A stretch of 37,321 bases of DNA from a virus, in IMG/VR virus record IMGVR_UViG_3300023094_000025, positions 1 to 37,321 of that record. One strand, 5' to 3'. A program made the position numbers and the translations under genes. Shown piece by piece: positions 1 through 37,321 of this stretch (its first letter is position 1; the number at the start of each line of letters is the position of its first letter). The notes beneath the pieces are model-generated. The model did no database searches. It was not told the DNA's origin and saw only the letters and a program-made list of their open reading frames with translations.

Positions 1-55
1 AGGTCGGCACCGCCCAGGTCGGCACCGCGCAGGTCGGCACCGCCCAGGTTGGTCT
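1..55. repeat. 15-bp tandem repeats encoding pentapeptides
   Basis: Near-identical 15-base units of the form AGGTCGGCACCGCSC follow each other at the left end, and one and a half related units end the window at about 37298-37321. Each unit encodes one pentapeptide on the minus strand. A short exact tandem repeat is a typical place for a circular phage assembly to break or collapse. Confidence 0.85.
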
Positions 56-173
56 TAGCAGCCACAGCTTGCTCCAATGCGTGACGCAGATGCAGGCCAC
101 TCTCCAGGCCATCAGGCGCAGCGCATTCGAACAGAGCAGCATCGGTGAAACGGTGTTTGATTTGGATTTGCAT
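1..173 (-). CDS. Pentapeptide-repeat protein, N-terminal part (cut by window edge)
   Basis: The ATG at 173-171 has an upstream TGGAG. It opens a frame that reads MQIQIKHRFTDAALF, then a short linker, then three and a half pentapeptides of A-D-L-x-x type (TNLGG, ADLRG, ADLGG, ADL) before the window ends with two bases of a codon. Pentapeptide repeats form a right-handed quadrilateral beta helix. The C-terminal part of the same gene is at the other end of the window (36961-37321), so this is the first gene of the leftward early operon behind the promoter at 215-242. Joining the ends directly keeps the frame but gives ADL-ANL, two residues short of the five-residue period, so 6 bases (or 6 plus a multiple of 15) are probably missing. 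Function in the phage is unknown. Confidence 0.85.
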   Translation of the reverse strand, partial: MQIQIKHRFTDAALFECAAPDGLESGLHLRHALEQAVAAKTNLGGADLRGADLGGAD

Positions 174-214: not shown

Positions 215-242
215 ACTTTACCATAAAGATAAACAAACACAA
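215..242 (-). promoter_or_regulatory. Putative leftward early promoter (pL-like)
   Basis: On the minus strand a TTGTGT (242-237) lies 16 bp from TAAAGT (220-215), giving a predicted start near 208 and a leader of about 35 nt before the ATG at 173. The operator at 217-233 covers the -10 and spacer, and a second operator (249-265) lies just upstream of the -35, so bound repressor would block it. The -35 match is only partial; the assignment rests mainly on overlap with the operators and on the leftward operon that starts here. Confidence 0.55.
217..233. promoter_or_regulatory. Repressor/Cro operator, left copy 1
   Basis: TTTACC-ATAAA-GATAAA is a 17-bp imperfect palindrome with half-site TTTA(C/T)C. 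It is the exact reverse complement of the site at 2194-2210 beside the rightward promoter. The same operator flanking both ends of the repressor operon is the hallmark of a lambdoid OL/OR pair. Confidence 0.78.
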
Positions 243-248
243 GATAAA

Positions 249-265
249 TTTACCCAAAAGATAAA
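249..265. promoter_or_regulatory. Repressor/Cro operator, left copy 2
   Basis: TTTACC-CAAAA-GATAAA shows the same 17-bp pattern, starting 32 bp from the first copy. A weaker match ending in GATAAA lies between them (232-248, first half-site degenerate), giving a possible three-site array as in lambda OL. Confidence 0.72.
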
Positions 266-296: not shown

Positions 297-318
297 AAAA
301 AAACCGCCCGAAGGCGGC
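297..318 (-). terminator. Rho-independent terminator of the lysogeny operon
   Basis: Read on the minus strand, GC-rich arms CCGCC and GGCGG enclose a TTCG tetraloop and are followed directly by seven T. It lies 27 bp after the stop of the distal lipoprotein gene and before the leftward promoter. It therefore separates the lysogeny operon from the early left operon, the position of t-imm in lambda. Confidence 0.9.
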
Positions 319-344
319 TCATTTGGAGAGTGGTGATCAGGCCA

Positions 345-575
345 TCATCCTGATCGCTTTTCCCATCCCTTTCCCATCATGCAGTTCTGCAGAACGATTA
401 CGCGTTGAATCATCGGCGCGCCGACTAGTGAAAACGCTTGAGCTCGGCATTGAGCGTCATCCATGTTGAAATCTTGTTGCGTCGATCCCGCCTTGTACCA
501 ATGCCAATTATCGTTTTGGGTTGCGCAGGCTGAGAGGAGGTAGCTGCAAATAATCAAAATCGAGATATTTTTCAT
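345..575 (-). CDS. Small lipoprotein in the lysogeny operon
   Basis: The protein is 76 aa. A short basic N-terminus and hydrophobic core lead to a lipobox L14-S-A-C17 followed by Ala, so an outer-membrane-type lipoprotein is predicted. The mature part is small and has two further Cys (in DDAQC and LQNCMMGKGW), a pattern found in short phage and prophage lipoproteins that I recognise only as hypothetical. The start at 575 was chosen because it places the signal peptide at the N-terminus; an upstream in-frame ATG at 626 would add a non-signal extension. It lies 8 bp after the previous lipoprotein gene and is the last gene before the terminator, so it should be made in lysogens with the repressor. 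Surface exclusion is possible but unproven. Confidence 0.75.
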   Translation of the reverse strand: MKNISILIICSYLLSACATQNDNWHWYKAGSTQQDFNMDDAQCRAQAFSLVGAPMIQRVIVLQNCMMGKGWEKRSG

Positions 576-583
576 ATTTATTT

Positions 584-1195
584 TTATCGAGTTGTGCAAT
601 TCACTTGGCCGGCAATCGTCGTGCAATTCGTCGTCACGGTAGGGCGCGTTGGGATCATGTACGGCATTGGTGCCGGCGTAGGAGTCGGTTTGTTCTGGAG
701 CGCCTGCAGTTGCATCAGGAGGACTTGGCGCTCATTTGCGGACTGTTCGTCGACGGCCTTTCCAGCAATTTCCAAGCGAGCTTGTTGATCAGCATCTTCG
801 TTCAATTGCCGCCCTTCGGCATATTGCCCGTATGTGATTTTTCCCTCATAAAGGCGCGAGGTAAGCGTTTTTGCGTTTGCTCTGGTTTGTAGAATCAAAG
901 CATAGACCTTCGGATGCATGCTCTTTTGAATGACAGGGTCCACGGCGGAAAAGCATTGTTGACGGTCGGACGCCCAAGACGAAATTAGCGGTTTATCTGA
1001 ATCAGACGCTACGCTGTTGTTAGCTCTCATCTCAAGTGTTTGGCTCGATACCTTCCCAAGCGCCAATTTCTTTTCGAGAGGAGCATATTTCGGGTTTGTA
1101 GCGACTGCGTCCATGCATTTTGCAAATTGATCGTCAGGTTTTGTAGCGCACGCTGAAAGTGCAACTACAATTGTGCAAAGAGTGATTATTTTCAT
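584..1195 (-). CDS. Lipoprotein in the lysogeny operon
   Basis: The protein is 203 aa. An N-terminal signal ends in the lipobox L13-S-A-C16 followed by Ala. The body is helical and Lys/Gln/Ala-rich, a Pro/Thr-rich stretch follows near residue 170, and two NCTT motifs sit at the extreme C-terminus, possibly disulphide linked. The start has a strong AGGAGG five bases before ATG. It lies 13 bp downstream of the 140-aa gene and in the repressor operon, so it is predicted to be expressed in the prophage state and placed in the cell envelope. I do not recognise a function. Its position corresponds to lambda rexB, and phage lipoproteins made in lysogens often block superinfection; that role is inference. 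Confidence 0.78.
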   Translation of the reverse strand: MKIITLCTIVVALSACATKPDDQFAKCMDAVATNPKYAPLEKKLALGKVSSQTLEMRANNSVASDSDKPLISSWASDRQQCFSAVDPVIQKSMHPKVYALILQTRANAKTLTSRLYEGKITYGQYAEGRQLNEDADQQARLEIAGKAVDEQSANERQVLLMQLQALQNKPTPTPAPMPYMIPTRPTVTTNCTTIAGQVNCTTR

Positions 1196-1208
1196 GATTT
1201 CCTCCTGA

Positions 1209-1631
1209 TCAAGAGTGGGCGCGCTCTGTCGGTGGCCGCAGCAATTCTTTCTCGGCCAGGCGCAGCGATGTGTTCGGCATCATCTGGTCATACAGGGCTT
1301 TGTGCGGGTTGGCGCCGTCGATGTTCAACGTCGGGATTGCCATGCCGAGGCAGGCGACCATCATCCCGAGCGTACCCAACTTGCGCGCGATGGCCGGCGC
1401 CGACTGCGCGCTGTACTTATTGAAGAAAGCCGCGGCGATCATGCAGATCTCAATCGGCTTTGTCTTGTATTCGCCGGTGACGCCCCATTGATGGCCGCCG
1501 TTGCGACGAATGGCGAACATCATGCCGGAGGCGTTGCCACTTTTCACCAAGTCAATGATTTCTTGGCATACCGCAATCGTGTCGCTCCCACGAATGGCAT
1601 TGATTCCGAAAACCTTAGATTCTCCGGGCAT
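1209..1631 (-). CDS. Unknown 140-aa protein next to the repressor
   Basis: The ATG is preceded by GGAGG-TTGG, a strong ribosome binding site, 21 bp after the repressor stop codon. An N-terminal region (about residues 12-60) with VKSGNASGMMFAIRRNG resembles short phage proteins that carry a GxxxGMxFA pattern in a small alpha/beta domain. A hydrophobic Ala/Met/Gly-rich stretch (about residues 85-105) could be one membrane segment. It is second in the lysogeny operon, in the position of lambda rexA. The plus-strand frames over it are shadows without ribosome binding sites. Function unknown; immunity or exclusion is a contextual guess. Confidence 0.68.
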   Translation of the reverse strand: MPGESKVFGINAIRGSDTIAVCQEIIDLVKSGNASGMMFAIRRNGGHQWGVTGEYKTKPIEICMIAAAFFNKYSAQSAPAIARKLGTLGMMVACLGMAIPTLNIDGANPHKALYDQMMPNTSLRLAEKELLRPPTERAHS

Positions 1632-2144: not shown

Positions 2145-2161
2145 TTTACCAAGTAGATAAA
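2145..2161. promoter_or_regulatory. Repressor/Cro operator, right copy 1
   Basis: TTTACC-AAGTA-GATAAA fits the same 17-bp pattern as the two left operators. It sits 19 bp before the repressor start codon, so it probably also controls the repressor's own promoter. A weaker site, ATATCC-AAAAA-GGTAAA, follows at 2161-2177. Confidence 0.72.
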
Positions 2162-2178
2162 TATCCAAAAAGGTAAAG

Positions 2179-2207
2179 TTGACCTTCCATTTCTTTATCT
2201 TTATGGT
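2179..2207 (+). promoter_or_regulatory. Putative rightward early promoter (pR-like)
   Basis: TTGACC (2179-2184) and TATGGT (2202-2207) are separated by exactly 17 bp. The -10 lies inside the operator at 2194-2210, and another half-site ends two bases before the -35. Transcription would start near 2214, only about 5-11 nt before the first codons of the Cro-like gene. Confidence 0.6.
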
Positions 2208-2210
2208 AAA
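2194..2210. promoter_or_regulatory. Repressor/Cro operator, right copy 2
   Basis: TTTATC-TTTAT-GGTAAA is the exact reverse complement of the operator at 217-233. It overlaps the predicted -10 element of the rightward promoter, so occupancy would silence cro and the early right operon. Confidence 0.78.
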
Positions 2211-2218
2211 GTAAAGAT

Positions 2219-2455
2219 ATGGACATGAAAACTTTCTTGAGACAAGCAACCGACGAAGAGCGCCAGAAGCTGGCCGCTCAAGTCGATTCCTCTGTCGGTT
2301 ATTTCTATCTGATCGCCGGTGGCCATCGGAATCCCAGCACTTCACTGTGCAAATCACTGGTAGCGGCAGAGCCGAAGTTGAGCCTCTGTGAGCTCAGGCC
2401 GGATATTTGGGAGCCGGCAGTGCCGACCGAACCCGCCGCCGAGGCCGCGCCGTGA
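2219..2455 (+). CDS. Cro-like (YdaS-type) DNA-binding protein
   Basis: A 78-aa product divergent from the repressor and directly behind the rightward promoter. MKTFLRQATDEERQKLAAQVDSS followed by GYFYLIAGGHRNPS matches the layout of YdaS/Cro-type helix-turn-helix proteins, in which the recognition helix follows an AxxxGSSxxYLxQIAxGxR-like pattern. The C-terminal tail is Pro/Ala/Glu-rich. Start may be 2219 (MDMKTF) or 2225 (MKTF); neither has a Shine-Dalgarno, and the predicted transcript begins only a few bases upstream, so translation may be nearly leaderless. Expected role: early repressor of the lysogeny promoter in the lytic switch. Confidence 0.78.
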   Translation: MDMKTFLRQATDEERQKLAAQVDSSVGYFYLIAGGHRNPSTSLCKSLVAAEPKLSLCELRPDIWEPAVPTEPAAEAAP

Positions 2456-2551: not shown

Positions 2552-2926
2552 TCACTGCGAGACAGGCGGAGGTTTATAACCGTCTGGCAAGCGTGGCGGG
2601 TCCGTGGGGTCAGAACCCAGCAGCTCAAGTAGGTCTGCGGAGTGCCGTTCGCTCTCATTCAGATTCACATCTGGTACAGCAATCCCTCCTTGCACAGCTG
2701 CAGTCTGCTCCAGGAAAAACCGAATCACAGTCGCCAGCTGAGAATCCTTCGTCGTCTGCTGGCACAGGGCAAACGCCACCGCGTACAGTGGTCGGAAAGC
2801 TCCATCGTGCTGTTGAAGCTGGTCTGAAAAAGATTTTCCAAGGGCGGACATGATGAATTTCGTCCGCTCAAGTTCCTTCTCTAAATATGCCACGCGCTGC
2901 TCCAGCGTCGGTTCTTCGTTTTCCAT
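2552..2926 (-). CDS. Unknown coiled-coil protein facing cro
   Basis: The 124-aa product opens with a charged heptad-like segment (LEQRVAYLEKELERTKFIM, about residues 8-26) predicted as coiled coil. An Ala/Leu-rich helical part follows, then a Pro-rich C-terminus. The start at 2926 has AAAGGA six bases upstream; the longer in-frame start at 2974 lacks one. It is convergent with the Cro-like gene (96 bp apart) and divergent from the CII-like gene, so it must have its own promoter in 2927-3060. The overlapping plus-strand frame at 2407-2853 is Arg/Ser/Gln-rich and looks like a shadow. Function unknown; read-through would run antisense to cro. Confidence 0.62.
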   Translation of the reverse strand: MENEEPTLEQRVAYLEKELERTKFIMSALGKSFSDQLQQHDGAFRPLYAVAFALCQQTTKDSQLATVIRFFLEQTAAVQGGIAVPDVNLNESERHSADLLELLGSDPTDPPRLPDGYKPPPVSQ

Positions 2927-3060
2927 GCGCATTCCTTTCGTGTCCATCGGGTGTGAGAACCACGATTGTGTCACGGCTGTGAATGCGCGCCCTTATTCCA
3001 TGGCTTCACTTTAGCTGCGCCGCATCAATTGCGCATTAGAAATCAAACAGGGGTTTTTCC

Positions 3061-3597
3061 ATGACATACAAATACGGCGAGACGGATCAGGGCGATTGCC
3101 TCTACAACACGGCGCGCGCCTATCCTGGCGGCATCGAAGCGCTGGCGCACCGCATGGGCGTGAACGCCGGCACGTTGCAGAAGAAGCTGAGTCCGATGAT
3201 CAAGAGCTACATCGCCAGCGATGAGGATGCTACCGTAGTGATGGAGCTCTGCCACAGCGCCGGCGTGCCGGATTCGTTTGCGGCGCACCATGCGCGATCG
3301 TACCGCCTCGGCTTCATCTGCGTGCCGGTGCCGAACATCGAGAACGGCGACATCAGCGACAAGGAACTGCAGCGTCTGGTCATGGCCTCGGTAGCTCAGC
3401 TTGGCGAAGCCGTCGCGGCATCGACCGACGCGCTGCTCGATGGCCATATCTCCGAGCAGGAAGTCGAGCGCATCGAGCCGCGTATTCGCGCGCTGATGCG
3501 CACCGCACACATGCTCATCCACGGCATGCGCGCTCGCGCCAAATCCGACGCCAGCAAGTTGATCAACAAGTTTCGGCGGCAGAAGGAGGCGGCATGA
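3061..3597 (+). CDS. CII-like phage regulatory protein (Phage_CP76 type)
   Basis: The 178-aa protein starts with an AGGGG seven bases before ATG. The N-terminal half (YNTARAYPGGIEALAHRMG, then NAGTLQKKL, then a region ending VMELCHSAG) follows the pattern of the Phage_CP76 family, annotated as phage regulatory protein CII and found in P2-like and betaproteobacterial phages. The first part forms a helix-turn-helix. The C-terminal half is an alpha-helical, Ala/Arg-rich segment. As first gene of the early right operon after the immunity region it occupies the cII position. Whether it promotes lysogeny or replication control is not visible from sequence. Confidence 0.72.
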   Translation: MTYKYGETDQGDCLYNTARAYPGGIEALAHRMGVNAGTLQKKLSPMIKSYIASDEDATVVMELCHSAGVPDSFAAHHARSYRLGFICVPVPNIENGDISDKELQRLVMASVAQLGEAVAASTDALLDGHISEQEVERIEPRIRALMRTAHMLIHGMRARAKSDASKLINKFRRQKEAA

Positions 3598-4051: not shown

Positions 4052-4738
4052 ATGGCACGCATTCGCACGATCAAGCCGGATTTCTGGACCGATGAGAAGG
4101 TCGTCGAGCTTTCCATGGAAGCCCGACTGTTCTTTATTGGCTCATGGAATTTCGCGGACGACTACGGAAACATCCAACGTTCGGCCAAAAAATTGAAGAT
4201 GCAAATTTTCCCGGCGGATGCAATTGACTGCGAACCGCTGATTCAATCACTGATTACTCACGGATTGTTCACTGAGTATGACGTGAATGGCGAAAAGTAC
4301 TTACACATCAAGGGTTTCAAGTCGCATCAGGTCATCAACCGACCATCGAAATCAGGCCTTCCAGCACCGGAATCCGTGCAAGTTCAGTTGCCACTCACTG
4401 AGCCCTCATTGACGGAAGGGAAGGGAAGGGAAGGGAAAGGAAAGGAAAAGGATATGTCCGGTTCACCGGACGTCATCGCAATCCTGGAGCACCTGAACGA
4501 AAAAGCGGGGAAGTCGTACCGACCAGTCGAAGCAAACCTGCGGGTGATCGCTGCAAGACTCGGGGAATCGTCGGTTGCCGAATGCATGGCCGTCATCGAC
4601 GCCAAGGTCAGCGAGTGGCTGCACGACGACAAGATGGCGCAGTACCTGCGTCCGGAGACGCTGTTCGGTGCCACCAAGTTCGCGCAGTACGTCGGCCAGC
4701 TGGGTGCCGGTGGCAACGGCGGAAACGCCTTCGCATGA
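4052..4738 (+). CDS. Phage replication initiator (O-like, Phg_2220_C C-terminus)
   Basis: The 228-aa protein has three parts. The N-terminal domain (1-110) has the winged-helix look of phage replisome organisers (ARIRTIKPDFWTDEKVVELS, then LFFIGSWNFADDYGN). The linker (about 118-135) is low complexity, Gly/Lys/Glu/Arg-rich. The C-terminal domain (about 143-220, ILEHLNEKAGKSYRP and YLRPETLFGATKFAQYV) matches the conserved phage C-terminal domain Phg_2220_C. Such proteins bind the phage origin and load a helicase. The next genes encode a small conserved protein and a RecA-fold helicase, completing a replication module. The DNA coding for the linker is a purine repeat that may itself be the origin, as in lambda O. 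Confidence 0.82.
   Translation: MARIRTIKPDFWTDEKVVELSMEARLFFIGSWNFADDYGNIQRSAKKLKMQIFPADAIDCEPLIQSLITHGLFTEYDVNGEKYLHIKGFKSHQVINRPSKSGLPAPESVQVQLPLTEPSLTEGKGREGKGKEKDMSGSPDVIAILEHLNEKAGKSYRPVEANLRVIAARLGESSVAECMAVIDAKVSEWLHDDKMAQYLRPETLFGATKFAQYVGQLGAGGNGGNAFA
4416..4452 (+). repeat. Purine repeat with four GGG tracts (possible G-quadruplex/origin)
   Basis: GGG runs at 4418-4420, 4423-4425, 4428-4430 and 4433-4435 are each separated by AA, and the purine run continues with GGAAAGG-type units to about 4451. Four G3 tracts with 2-base loops fit the classical intramolecular quadruplex rule. The tract lies in the interdomain linker of the initiator gene, where lambda carries its ori iterons. Confidence 0.55.
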
Positions 4739-5091
4739 TGCGCGGCCATCGCCAAATCATTCGCGCACGCATGGACGGATTGAAGCCGGCGGCGGTGTTC
4801 GTGGATTTGGTCGACGTCGAAACGCCGGTGACGAACCGGTTTGATGATCCGGAGAACCGCCTCAGCTTCGGCCTGTACCCGAACGTTGAGGTGACCCGCG
4901 ACGACATGCGCAGAGCGCTCGACCTGCGCTTCCTGGTGAACTGCCTGGTGCATGTGCACGGCAAGGTGATGGATGACGACTTCGGCCGGCTGGTCGACAA
5001 GATCGCCGAGAAGGCAGCGCACGTCGTGGCATGCGCCGGCGACGAACTCATGGAATTCAAAAATGGAGAGTGGCAAGCATGGACGTTCTGA
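4735..5091 (+). CDS. Conserved phage protein of unknown function in the replication module
   Basis: The 118-aa product begins MMRGHRQIIRARMDGLKPAAVFVDL, an N-terminus I recognise from a widespread family of hypothetical phage proteins encoded between replication genes. The first ATG overlaps the initiator's stop codon (ATGATG). The C-terminus overlaps the helicase start by 13 bp, so all three are translationally coupled. The C-terminal half contains MDDDFGRLVDKIAEKAAHVVACAGDELMEF, predicted helical. No catalytic motif is visible. Confidence 0.68.
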   Translation: MMRGHRQIIRARMDGLKPAAVFVDLVDVETPVTNRFDDPENRLSFGLYPNVEVTRDDMRRALDLRFLVNCLVHVHGKVMDDDFGRLVDKIAEKAAHVVACAGDELMEFKNGEWQAWTF

Positions 5092-27583: not shown

Positions 27584-27590
27584 CTATTTT
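27557..27590 (+). terminator. Terminator between late operon and int
   Basis: GAGGTGTCGA (27557-27566) and TCGACACCTC (27575-27584) form a perfect 10-bp stem with an 8-base loop, followed by TATTTT on the plus strand. It would stop rightward late or SOS transcription before it runs antisense into int. The int stop codon TAG lies in the base of the stem. Confidence 0.8.
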
Positions 27591-28690
27591 ACCGAAACTT
27601 CGAGATACCCTGTTCCGCGCAAGTCATCGTAGATCGCGGTTGTCTTTGCTTCCTTGTGGCCCAGCAGCGCTTGGACGAAGTCGCCGTCGTGTTGCTCCTT
27701 GTACAATCTTTCAGCGAGTGACCGGATTTCGTGGAACGTCACTGGCGTCTTTTCTGTGCCGGGTACGACACCGGCGAACTTCCGTGCCGCCCGGAATGCA
27801 TCCGTGATCCCTTGCGGCGTCGCAGGATCGCCTGGCTTGTTCATCCCGCGCGTGCGGACATGGTGAACCATATGCTTGCTCAGGACGCTATCCCGGCATA
27901 AGCGGATAGCCTCATCGATCGACATCCCGAACTTGTCCAGCCGAATGCTGGTGTTGATTTTCAGCTTGGTCTTGCCGCCGCCCTTCCTCTGCGCAACCAA
28001 CAGATAGCCGTCGGCCACATCAGAAAATAGCATATTTGCAATATCGTCCCGGCGCTGGCCGGTGGTCAGGGCAAGGTTCATGGCGTTTTTCAACCACGGA
28101 ACAGCCTTTTCCCTGATCGCCAAGAATGCCTCCAGCGTCAGCCGGTCGCGCGTCGGCTCGTATTCCGGCGTGTACGTGACCAGCACGGGATTCGAACCGT
28201 TGGGGATCAGTCCCTTGGTCTCCGCGGTGCGGAATGCATCGGAGATCCGCGAGCGGATATTGATGATGGTGCTGGTGCCGCGCACGCCGTCGAGCGAATC
28301 CAGGTGGTCCGAAATAATCTGCGATGTGATCTCTCGTAGCGGCATCCAGGCCCATTTCGTTTCCTTGAGCTCGGCGATATACATCCGCCCGATGCGCAGG
28401 GTATTTGCGGCCGGCTTCTCGCGCTTGATCCAGATCGGCTCATACTCGACCAACCAGTCCTTGAACGACAACTGCGGCTTGTTCGTGATCCAGTCGATCA
28501 GGCTGGTTTCCGCAATCTTGTCCAGTTCGGCGTTGGCGGCTCGCGCCTGACGAAATGCATCAGCGCGGTCCCGGCCAAGACCCTTAGTCTTCCCGTTGCG
28601 CGGATTCCGGTACCAGAAATATCCGTCAGCCTTGCAATACAGGTTGTCGGGAAATCCTTTGCGCGATGAAATGCGTCGACGTGCGTTCAT
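27584..28690 (-). CDS. int: Tyrosine-recombinase integrase
   Basis: The 368-aa protein has an N-terminal arm-binding domain (SSRKGFPDNLYCKADGYFWY and GKTKGLGRDRADAFRQA), a core-binding SAM-like domain (about 75-165), and a catalytic domain. The catalytic residues are all present: R213 (TGQRRDDI), K236 (QRKGGGK), H320 and R323 (FHEIRSLAERLY), H345 (LLGHKEAKT) and Y354 (AIYDD). It is last in the early left operon and points into the probable attP. The ATG overlaps the excisionase stop (ATGA), so the two are translated together. Confidence 0.92.
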   Translation of the reverse strand: MNARRRISSRKGFPDNLYCKADGYFWYRNPRNGKTKGLGRDRADAFRQARAANAELDKIAETSLIDWITNKPQLSFKDWLVEYEPIWIKREKPAANTLRIGRMYIAELKETKWAWMPLREITSQIISDHLDSLDGVRGTSTIINIRSRISDAFRTAETKGLIPNGSNPVLVTYTPEYEPTRDRLTLEAFLAIREKAVPWLKNAMNLALTTGQRRDDIANMLFSDVADGYLLVAQRKGGGKTKLKINTSIRLDKFGMSIDEAIRLCRDSVLSKHMVHHVRTRGMNKPGDPATPQGITDAFRAARKFAGVVPGTEKTPVTFHEIRSLAERLYKEQHDGDFVQALLGHKEAKTTAIYDDLRGTGYLEVSVK

Positions 28691-34152: not shown

Positions 34153-35202
34153 TCAGCTCGGCACGTAATCGTCGCCACGATCCAGCCCGGCGGCGAACTC
34201 AGGGTCAATCGGTGGCGCTGGCGGCGCGTCGGCACGAGGTGTACCGGCATCGCCGTTGTCGATGACGTCGGCACCGGCAGCCGCTGCCGCTTCCTTCATT
34301 GCGGCGCGGTGGCGCGAGATGGCTTCCTTCAATTTGGCGTGATCGGCCGGCTGCTTGGAGAGCTGCGCGTTGTTGGCCTTCCAGAACGCCAAGGCGTCGG
34401 CATCCGTGGTGGTCTGCAGCGCAGCCACAATCAGCGGCTTGACGTCGATACGGCTCGCGTCCGGCGGTTCGTTGATGTCGCGCATGCCTTCGCCGCCGTC
34501 GGTGTTCAGGTAGTGGATCGCAGCGTCCAGACGGTCAGTCTTCGGCCAATACTTGTACGCCTGCTTGACGCACGTTTTCTTGATCATTTCTTCGGCGTCG
34601 CTCACCCATGGGCAAGATTTGATCTTCTTGGCGACATACGATTTCCAGGCTTCGGAGCGGTCGCGGATGTCGTTGACCTTGCCGATTTCCATTGTGTGGG
34701 TCAGGTAGTCACCGTCGACCGTCTTCACGACCACGTAGACGCCGACGATATCGCCGCGATCATCGGGTGGCGCGAACTCTTCGAACTCATGCACCGGCAG
34801 TTGATCCATGCGGCCACGAATGAACTTGTCATTGCGGCGCACGATCTGGGCCTGCGCCCACTTGATGGAGCCGGATTCGACAGCAAGGTCGATCAGGCCC
34901 ATATAGCTGATGTCGAGGCAAATCGCAGCATCTGCACCAGCGTTCGGGCGGCGCGGCACCAGGTAGGCCTGCTTCTTCGCCGGGTTCAGGCTGATGCCGA
35001 TGGCGGCGATGTTCGTCACGGCGTTGATCACCGATTGCCGGTTCTTGTTGGCGACGCTGAGAATGTAGTCACCGCTGCCGATGATCTGAATTGCGAAGCC
35101 TGCTTCACGTTCGAAGTTCAGCGACTTATCTGCCAGCACGGCCATGAAAGAGGCGCGCGTGCCGTAGATTTCATCCGTAATCAGTGCGAGTGCATTGCTC
35201 AT
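34153..35202 (-). CDS. recT: RecT-family ssDNA annealing protein
   Basis: The 349-aa protein has the conserved RecT core: [66 protein letters not shown] and [17 protein letters not shown] followed by [16 protein letters not shown]. The C-terminal part (about 270-349) is variable and Ala/Pro-rich. It anneals complementary single strands made by the exonuclease in the next gene. The start overlaps the upstream stop (ATGA). Confidence 0.9.
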
Positions 35203-36960: not shown

Positions 36961-37321
36961 TCAGGCCTCGGCTACAGCCGCAGCGTTGGCCAGCAACGCG
37001 GCGAATTCATCAATCCACTCGACAGTCATTTTCACGACGCTGCTGCTGTCCGGCGTGTCGCCCGTGTTGATCTGCATAAACCATTGCTCAGCTGGACGCG
37101 AAGAATTCGGCTCGATGCCGTTGCCCAAAGTGCGGTGCGATACGCCGCGTGCGATGGCGATGGTTCCGACCAAGCAAGCGCAAGCACCCTCATATACGCT
37201 GCCATTGACACGACCAGCAACAAGTGCGGCGCGGACTGCCGCAACTTCCTTCGGTGCGCGAAGAAGAATGTCGAAAAGATCGGCTTTGAAGAAGCCCAGG
37301 TCGGCATCGCGCAGGTTGGCA
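36961..37321 (-). CDS. Pentapeptide-repeat protein, C-terminal part (cut by window edge)
   Basis: Read from the window end, the frame begins with two pentapeptide-like units (ANLRD, ADLGF) and then a C-terminal domain: FKADLFDILLRAPKEVAAVR, GRVNGSVYEGACACLVGTIA and MTVEWIDEFAALLANAAAV. This C-terminal domain behind pentapeptide repeats is common in phage early proteins of unknown function. Its N-terminal half is at 173-1, so the gene spans the closing point of a circular genome. The joined protein would have about 178-180 residues (or more if further repeats are missing). Confidence 0.85.
   Translation of the reverse strand, partial: ANLRDADLGFFKADLFDILLRAPKEVAAVRAALVAGRVNGSVYEGACACLVGTIAIARGVSHRTLGNGIEPNSSRPAEQWFMQINTGDTPDSSSVVKMTVEWIDEFAALLANAAAVAEA

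Follow-up and report, generated by a model that had tools for sequence, protein, structure and literature searches.

Lipoprotein genes in the rex slot of a temperate phage: a candidate envelope-exclusion cassette between OL and cI

Do three genes that follow the repressor gene of a temperate phage occupy the position held in lambda by the rex genes, and if so, what might their products do for the lysogen? In lambda, the rex slot is a known site for accessory genes, and its known occupants are mostly intracellular defence or inner-membrane proteins. The window analyzed here, a virus record of 37,321 bases, has a temperate-phage layout and encodes a terminase and a podovirus-type portal in addition to the features of Table 1. 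The first-pass annotation had proposed that the three genes, here called x1, x2, and x3, form an exclusion or lysogenic-conversion operon in the rex position. The components of this proposal are already known, namely the rex slot itself, exclusion by lipoproteins, and the presence of lipoproteins in the lysogeny module of Gram-positive phages. Among the open-licence papers searched, we found none reporting that Gram-negative phages recurrently carry lipoprotein genes linked to the repressor in the OL–cI interval.

A lambda-type immunity region with three genes behind the repressor

The three minus-strand reading frames are all present at the place and on the strand originally annotated, in the order cI, x1, x2, and x3, separated by gaps of 21, 13, and 8 nt, and are followed by a terminator. 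Each has the highest codon score of the six possible frames (+46.9 versus +10.0 for the next frame for x1, +1.4 versus -88 for x2, and +1.9 versus -26.6 for x3). The annotation had also credited the operon with good ribosome sites and a strong terminator, and both statements hold in part. Ribosome sites precede x1 (GGAGG) and x2 (AGGAGG), but there is none in the sequence upstream of x3, AAAUAAAU, and its translation would therefore depend on coupling to x2; a longer x3 frame that begins with a TTG start at 626 overlaps x2. The terminator, read from 320 to 301, looks real, with an 8-bp stem and a U run, but its strength is only moderate (-14.7 kcal/mol, z -1.4). The lack of a ribosome site before x3 would suit a reading in which x1–x3 do nothing for the lysogen and are either cargo of the lytic phase or decaying. 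We regard this as very improbable: no frame is interrupted and each outscores its alternatives in codon usage, x1 and x2 have strong ribosome sites, the genes follow cI at close spacing as far as the terminator that precedes OL, and related phages have a similarly filled slot.

Table 1. Positions of the immunity-region features and of other phage genes in the window
Feature	Position	Strand	Evidence or remark
Start of pentapeptide-repeat gene, first gene of the leftward (pL) operon	1..173	-	PF00805, 2.4e-4
OL operator	217..233	-	identical to the OR site at 2194
OL operator	249..265	-	TTTATCTTTTGGGTAAA
Intrinsic terminator closing the cI-x1-x2-x3 operon	301..320	-	8-bp stem and U run
x3, 76-aa lipoprotein	345..575	-	LSAC-A; two further invariant Cys (C43, C65); GW motif
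x2, 203-aa lipoprotein	584..1195	-	LSAC-A; chromosomal family LY.G..TYGQ
x1, 140-aa soluble protein	1209..1631	-	ORF; GGAGG; best codon score; relative in L215
cI-type repressor, 157 aa	1653..2126	-	PHROG 12107, 1.5e-11; N-termini related to phage repressors
OR operator adjoining the cI start	2145..2161	-	TTTATCTACTTGGTAAA
Weak third OR-like site	2161..2177	.	score 11.2; background best 5.7
OR operator	2194..2210	+	TTTATCTTTATGGTAAA; overlaps putative pR -10 (TTGACC 2179 / TATGGT 2202)
Cro-like regulator, divergent from cI	2219..2455	+	PHROG 35 transcriptional repressor, 3e-7
CII-type activator	3061-3597		PF06892, 5.9e-21
Integrase	27584-28690
RecT	34153-35202

The strongest support for the proposed layout comes from the operators, which the first-pass annotation did not contain. 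A 17-bp dyad, TTTATC(N5)GGTAAA, occurs on both sides of the module, twice on the left and two or three times on the right. The window holds four matches to this pattern, whereas 100 shuffled sequences held none, and with a position weight matrix these four main operators score 24.5-28.2 and a weak fifth site 11.2, compared with 5.7 for the best site elsewhere. Thus, the same operator flanks both ends of the repressor operon, as OL and OR do in lambda, with a divergent cro and a CII-type activator gene opposite, and x1–x3 therefore sit in a lambda-type OL–genes–cI–OR cassette, exactly in the rex slot. The order pL–terminator–three genes–cI–pR, which had been read as that of lambda, is backed both by these flanking operators and by relatives with the same slot. 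The spacing of the genes and the position of the terminator support the prediction that x1–x3 are expressed from the cI promoters in the lysogen.

The region resembles lambda cI-rexA-rexB in that the genes lie between cI and a terminator before OL/pL, in the operators on both sides, and in the expected expression from pRM and pRE in a lysogen. It differs from lambda in that none of the three proteins matches the RexA or RexB families in Pfam, PHROGs, NCBIfam, or PADLOC, and in that two of the three products are lipoproteins. A second parallel is phage BTP1, in which cI and the accessory defence gene bstA are cotranscribed in the lysogen as one transcript and the region from the repressor to n is a common site for morons (PMC7067206); x1–x3 would be cotranscribed with cI in the same way. 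BstA, however, acts inside the cell, at sites of phage DNA replication.

Two further features of the surrounding region were observed. The pentapeptide-repeat reading frame (1-221 and 36961-37321) continues in frame across both ends of the record, and the linear record therefore probably represents a complete, circularly permuted phage genome that was opened within a repeat. In that case, the leftward operon would extend from about 300 across the joined record ends in the direction of the integrase. A pentapeptide gene likewise lies left of the repressor operon in two of the related loci described below (L157 and L015). On the other side of the module, the interval from cro to cII contains a well-scored gene for a 124-aa protein with a coiled-coil-like start (2552-2926, minus strand). 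It runs antisense to the pR transcript, and pRE could drive its expression along with that of cI. L082 has a minus-strand gene (4586-4849) in the corresponding position ahead of its CII gene; the two genes appear to be unrelated.

Sequence relatives and origin of x1, x2, and x3

As had been annotated, the signal peptides of x2 and x3 both end in LSAC, and in both proteins the residue after the lipobox Cys is Ala. Under the Lol sorting rules, Ala after the lipidated Cys specifies the outer membrane, by which x2 and x3 are predicted to be outer-membrane lipoproteins. Direct relatives of x1–x3 were found neither in 50,697 annotated phages nor by an exact-peptide scan of viral contigs, and searches of Pfam, PHROGs, NCBIfam, PADLOC, and the PDB placed none of the three in a curated family, returning weak or signal-peptide matches only. 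Two candidate assignments were rejected. Membership of x3 in the Cor family (PHROG 1119, E 0.14) involves residues 3-22 only, which are the signal peptide, and in hhalign comparisons with the Cor proteins of N15 and HK022 the similarity is again carried by the signal peptide; glycyl-tRNA synthetase-like matches to x1 were judged to be chance, as they are to long, unrelated enzymes with low scores and no motif in common. AlphaFold2 models from single sequences were uninformative (pLDDT 40 for x1 and 51 for x2).

On Burkholderiales chromosomes, by contrast with the annotated phages, x2 and x3 do have relatives. Those of x2 occur in 13 of 399 genomes (E<=0.01; best 1.2e-18, over residues 16-203) and share with it full-length similarity, the lipobox, the LY.G..TYGQ motif, and an NCT-type C-terminus. 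Relatives of x3 occur in 22 of the 399 at the same threshold (best 2.9e-10), a count in which a few of the weakest are spurious; in addition to the lipidated Cys, all eight aligned members of the family have another two Cys, which may form a disulphide, as well as a terminal GW. From a reading of neighbouring frames, eno and ftsB are close to the best x2 relative, and x3 relatives have a TRAP-transporter gene, a glucokinase, or a copper oxidase nearby. Because they have these chromosomal relatives and a G+C content of 0.48-0.49, which is lower than that of the phage genome (0.58; x1 also 0.58), x2 and x3 look captured from Burkholderiales chromosomal lipoprotein families. Moreover, since the relatives sit on chromosomes (at eno-ftsB and beside a TRAP-transporter gene), the ancestral role of x2 and x3 was probably not exclusion.

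This origin bears on a different account of the cassette, which we consider possible but rather unlikely: lysogenic conversion without exclusion, in which captured host lipoproteins alter envelope stability, permeability, stress signalling, or niche fitness. Lambda bor provides a precedent for conversion of a lysogen without exclusion. In favour of this account, Burkholderiales maintain members of both lipoprotein families on their chromosomes, away from recognisable prophage genes, and slot contents vary among related phages and include a secreted nuclease. However, an arms race would explain equally well why unrelated proteins replace one another at a single position, and most known precedents for genes in this position are in phage defence (rexAB; bstA, PMC7067206; ltp, PMC3952083).

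The small protein x1 has a different distribution. It has no relative in genome contigs and no credible match in the 399 Burkholderiales genomes, but a relative (E 8e-5) is encoded in the viral contig L215, directly behind the L215 repressor. A second pair of small proteins, from L019 and L216 (E 1e-23), occupies the same place, with genes overlapping the end of cI, and a kinship of this pair with x1 is suggestive (x1/L215 versus p117/L216, hhalign E 5e-4, probability 30%). The window's cI is without an S24 peptidase domain match in the Pfam search, and several other repressors are likewise short and without the S24 autocleavage motif (L019, L021, L157, L160, L215, and L216); their induction must therefore work in some other way. 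All four x1-like genes lie directly behind such repressors, and in phage 434 the Hex gene overlaps the repressor gene and acts on the repressor (PMC3564112). The module might accordingly serve mainly the switch, with x1 as a repressor accessory (a stabiliser, antirepressor, or induction sensor) that replaces the S24 domain and with the lipoproteins as passengers. We consider this improbable: the cases number only four, the two small-protein pairs are joined weakly, other repressors without S24 (L021, L157, and L160) have no x1, and the enrichment of lipoproteins in the slot would be left unexplained.

The slot in related prophages

Related prophages were gathered through their terminase, without reference to the immunity region (L082 through its CII), and their repressors were located by sequence. 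Behind the repressor lies a lipoprotein gene in L004 (gap of 19 nt), L015 (12), L082 (34), L157, and L160; genes for a small protein and two lipoproteins in L019 and L155; a small protein and one lipoprotein in L216; and a secreted protein in L006 (gap of 16), L020 (24), and L179 (18). The L082 lipoprotein belongs to PHROG 890, a phage lipoprotein family of 63 phage records of which x2 and x3 are not members. The examined sequences of L021 and L215, relatives without the S24 motif, contain no lipoprotein. The slot lipoproteins of a Variovorax prophage (L019, 2021-2296) and a viral contig (L157, 2338-2610), both on the minus strand, are homologous (37% identity, 5e-15), and at least one lipoprotein family therefore recurs in the slot.

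Other kinds of occupant were also seen. In L020, a Pseudomonas prophage, the gene directly behind the repressor (2826-3533, minus) encodes a secreted staphylococcal-nuclease-type enzyme (SNase, PF00565, 1.7e-25) with an Excalibur domain; a periplasmic nuclease of this type could destroy incoming phage DNA. In a Vogesella prophage (L010, 2205-2857, minus), apparent HigB/HigA-type toxin–antitoxin genes stand behind the repressor.

The left border of the slot can be located in most of these loci by its operators. On the left side of the slot genes, palindromes from the cI-cro gap recur in L004, L006, L015, L019, L082, L155, L160, L179, and L215, with 0-2 mismatches in 16, compared with 2-4 for composition-shuffled gaps; the search revealed no left operator in L157, L020, or L216, the sequence of the last being incomplete. 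In L016, L022, and L025, an operator follows about 90-150 nt beyond cI with no gene between them. The slot genes are therefore dispensable, and an empty slot is what accessory insertion predicts. L004 (365, 1732) and L215 (301, 1297), which are otherwise different phages, have a common operator core, TAGCGAATCGCTA, suggesting that they have the same immunity specificity.

When genes and signal peptides were called by a single automatic rule (both caller and rule home-made), in a comparison framed after the first cases had been seen and over loci that are not fully independent (L004 and L215 share an operator type), exported products were encoded by 15 of the 57 slot genes, as against 16 of 309 genes in the rightward early regions of these loci (p 6e-6), and lipoproteins by 9 of 57 versus 2 of 309 (p 1e-6), or 7 of 54 slot genes without the window (p 3e-5). 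The rule missed three real cases (two in L019 and one in L216) and is therefore conservative. The slot is thus shared among the relatives, but its content is not. Conserved association with repressors, on which the first-pass annotation had staked its proposal, is found for position and protein class in about a dozen related prophages; the sequences themselves differ.

Envelope exclusion as a possible function

Among known systems, the lysogeny module of Streptococcus thermophilus phage TP-J34 (int-ltp-orf-cI) encodes Ltp, which blocks DNA injection, and comprises, in this order, a repressor, a soluble protein of about 120 aa, and an exported lipoprotein in one transcribed module (PMC3952083). 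It differs in that the host is Gram-positive and Ltp is anchored outside the cytoplasmic membrane, in that orf3 has a metalloproteinase motif not seen in x1, and in that no sequence similarity was found between Ltp and x2 or x3, compared by way of Pfam families (no match to the Ltp/host-surface lipoprotein family at E<=1). Llp of T5, Cor of N15, HK022, and T1, and Rtp45 of Rtp are likewise small outer-membrane lipoproteins, of 60-80 residues. Llp reshapes FhuA (PMC9586334) and Rtp45 reshapes LptD (PMC12685063), both from the periplasm. Cor and Rtp45 have two further cysteines, as does x3, and a disulphide has been reported for Llp and Rtp45. Unlike x1–x3, the genes of these proteins do not follow a repressor gene and are found instead in late or tail regions.

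The analogy with Llp, Rtp45, and Ltp makes exclusion at the envelope the most likely role of the cassette, and we favour it because small outer-membrane lipoproteins of like build are proven exclusion factors. The reading that best explains the whole, to which we assign a probability of about one half, is that x1-x2-x3 form an accessory (moron) cassette in the OL-to-cI interval of a lambda-type immunity region, are expressed in the lysogen, and exclude other phages at the envelope through their lipoproteins. In this mechanism, with pL and pR repressed, x1–x3 would be made from the pRM promoter of the repressor, and additionally from pRE during establishment, on a transcript that would stop at the terminator before OL. 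After export and lipidation, the x2 and x3 proteins would be placed on the inner face of the outer membrane, where one or both may bind an outer-membrane receptor or a DNA-entry channel from the periplasm. Such binding would stop superinfecting phages from adsorbing or injecting, in the manner of Llp on FhuA and Rtp45 on LptD, while x1 would act as a cytoplasmic partner.

In the related beta- and gammaproteobacterial phages, the slot is enriched for exported proteins, mostly lipoproteins, without a common sequence, and it is probably where the prophage arms the envelope of its host against rival phages. More tentatively, and with less confidence than for the cassette of the window itself, we propose that in a broad set of temperate phages infecting Burkholderiales and pseudomonads the rex slot may be reserved for envelope exclusion. 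Its position between OL and cI would be fixed and its expression repressor-driven, its occupants would be interchangeable lipoproteins or secreted proteins with no relation to one another, including even a secreted nuclease, and repressors without an autocleavage domain would be accompanied by a small protein of the x1 type. If this is true, then operators rather than homology could be used to find envelope-exclusion proteins, by reading whatever stands between OL and cI, and hence would offer a route to phage receptors in hosts for which few are known. It would also explain the recruitment of host outer-membrane lipoproteins by prophages.
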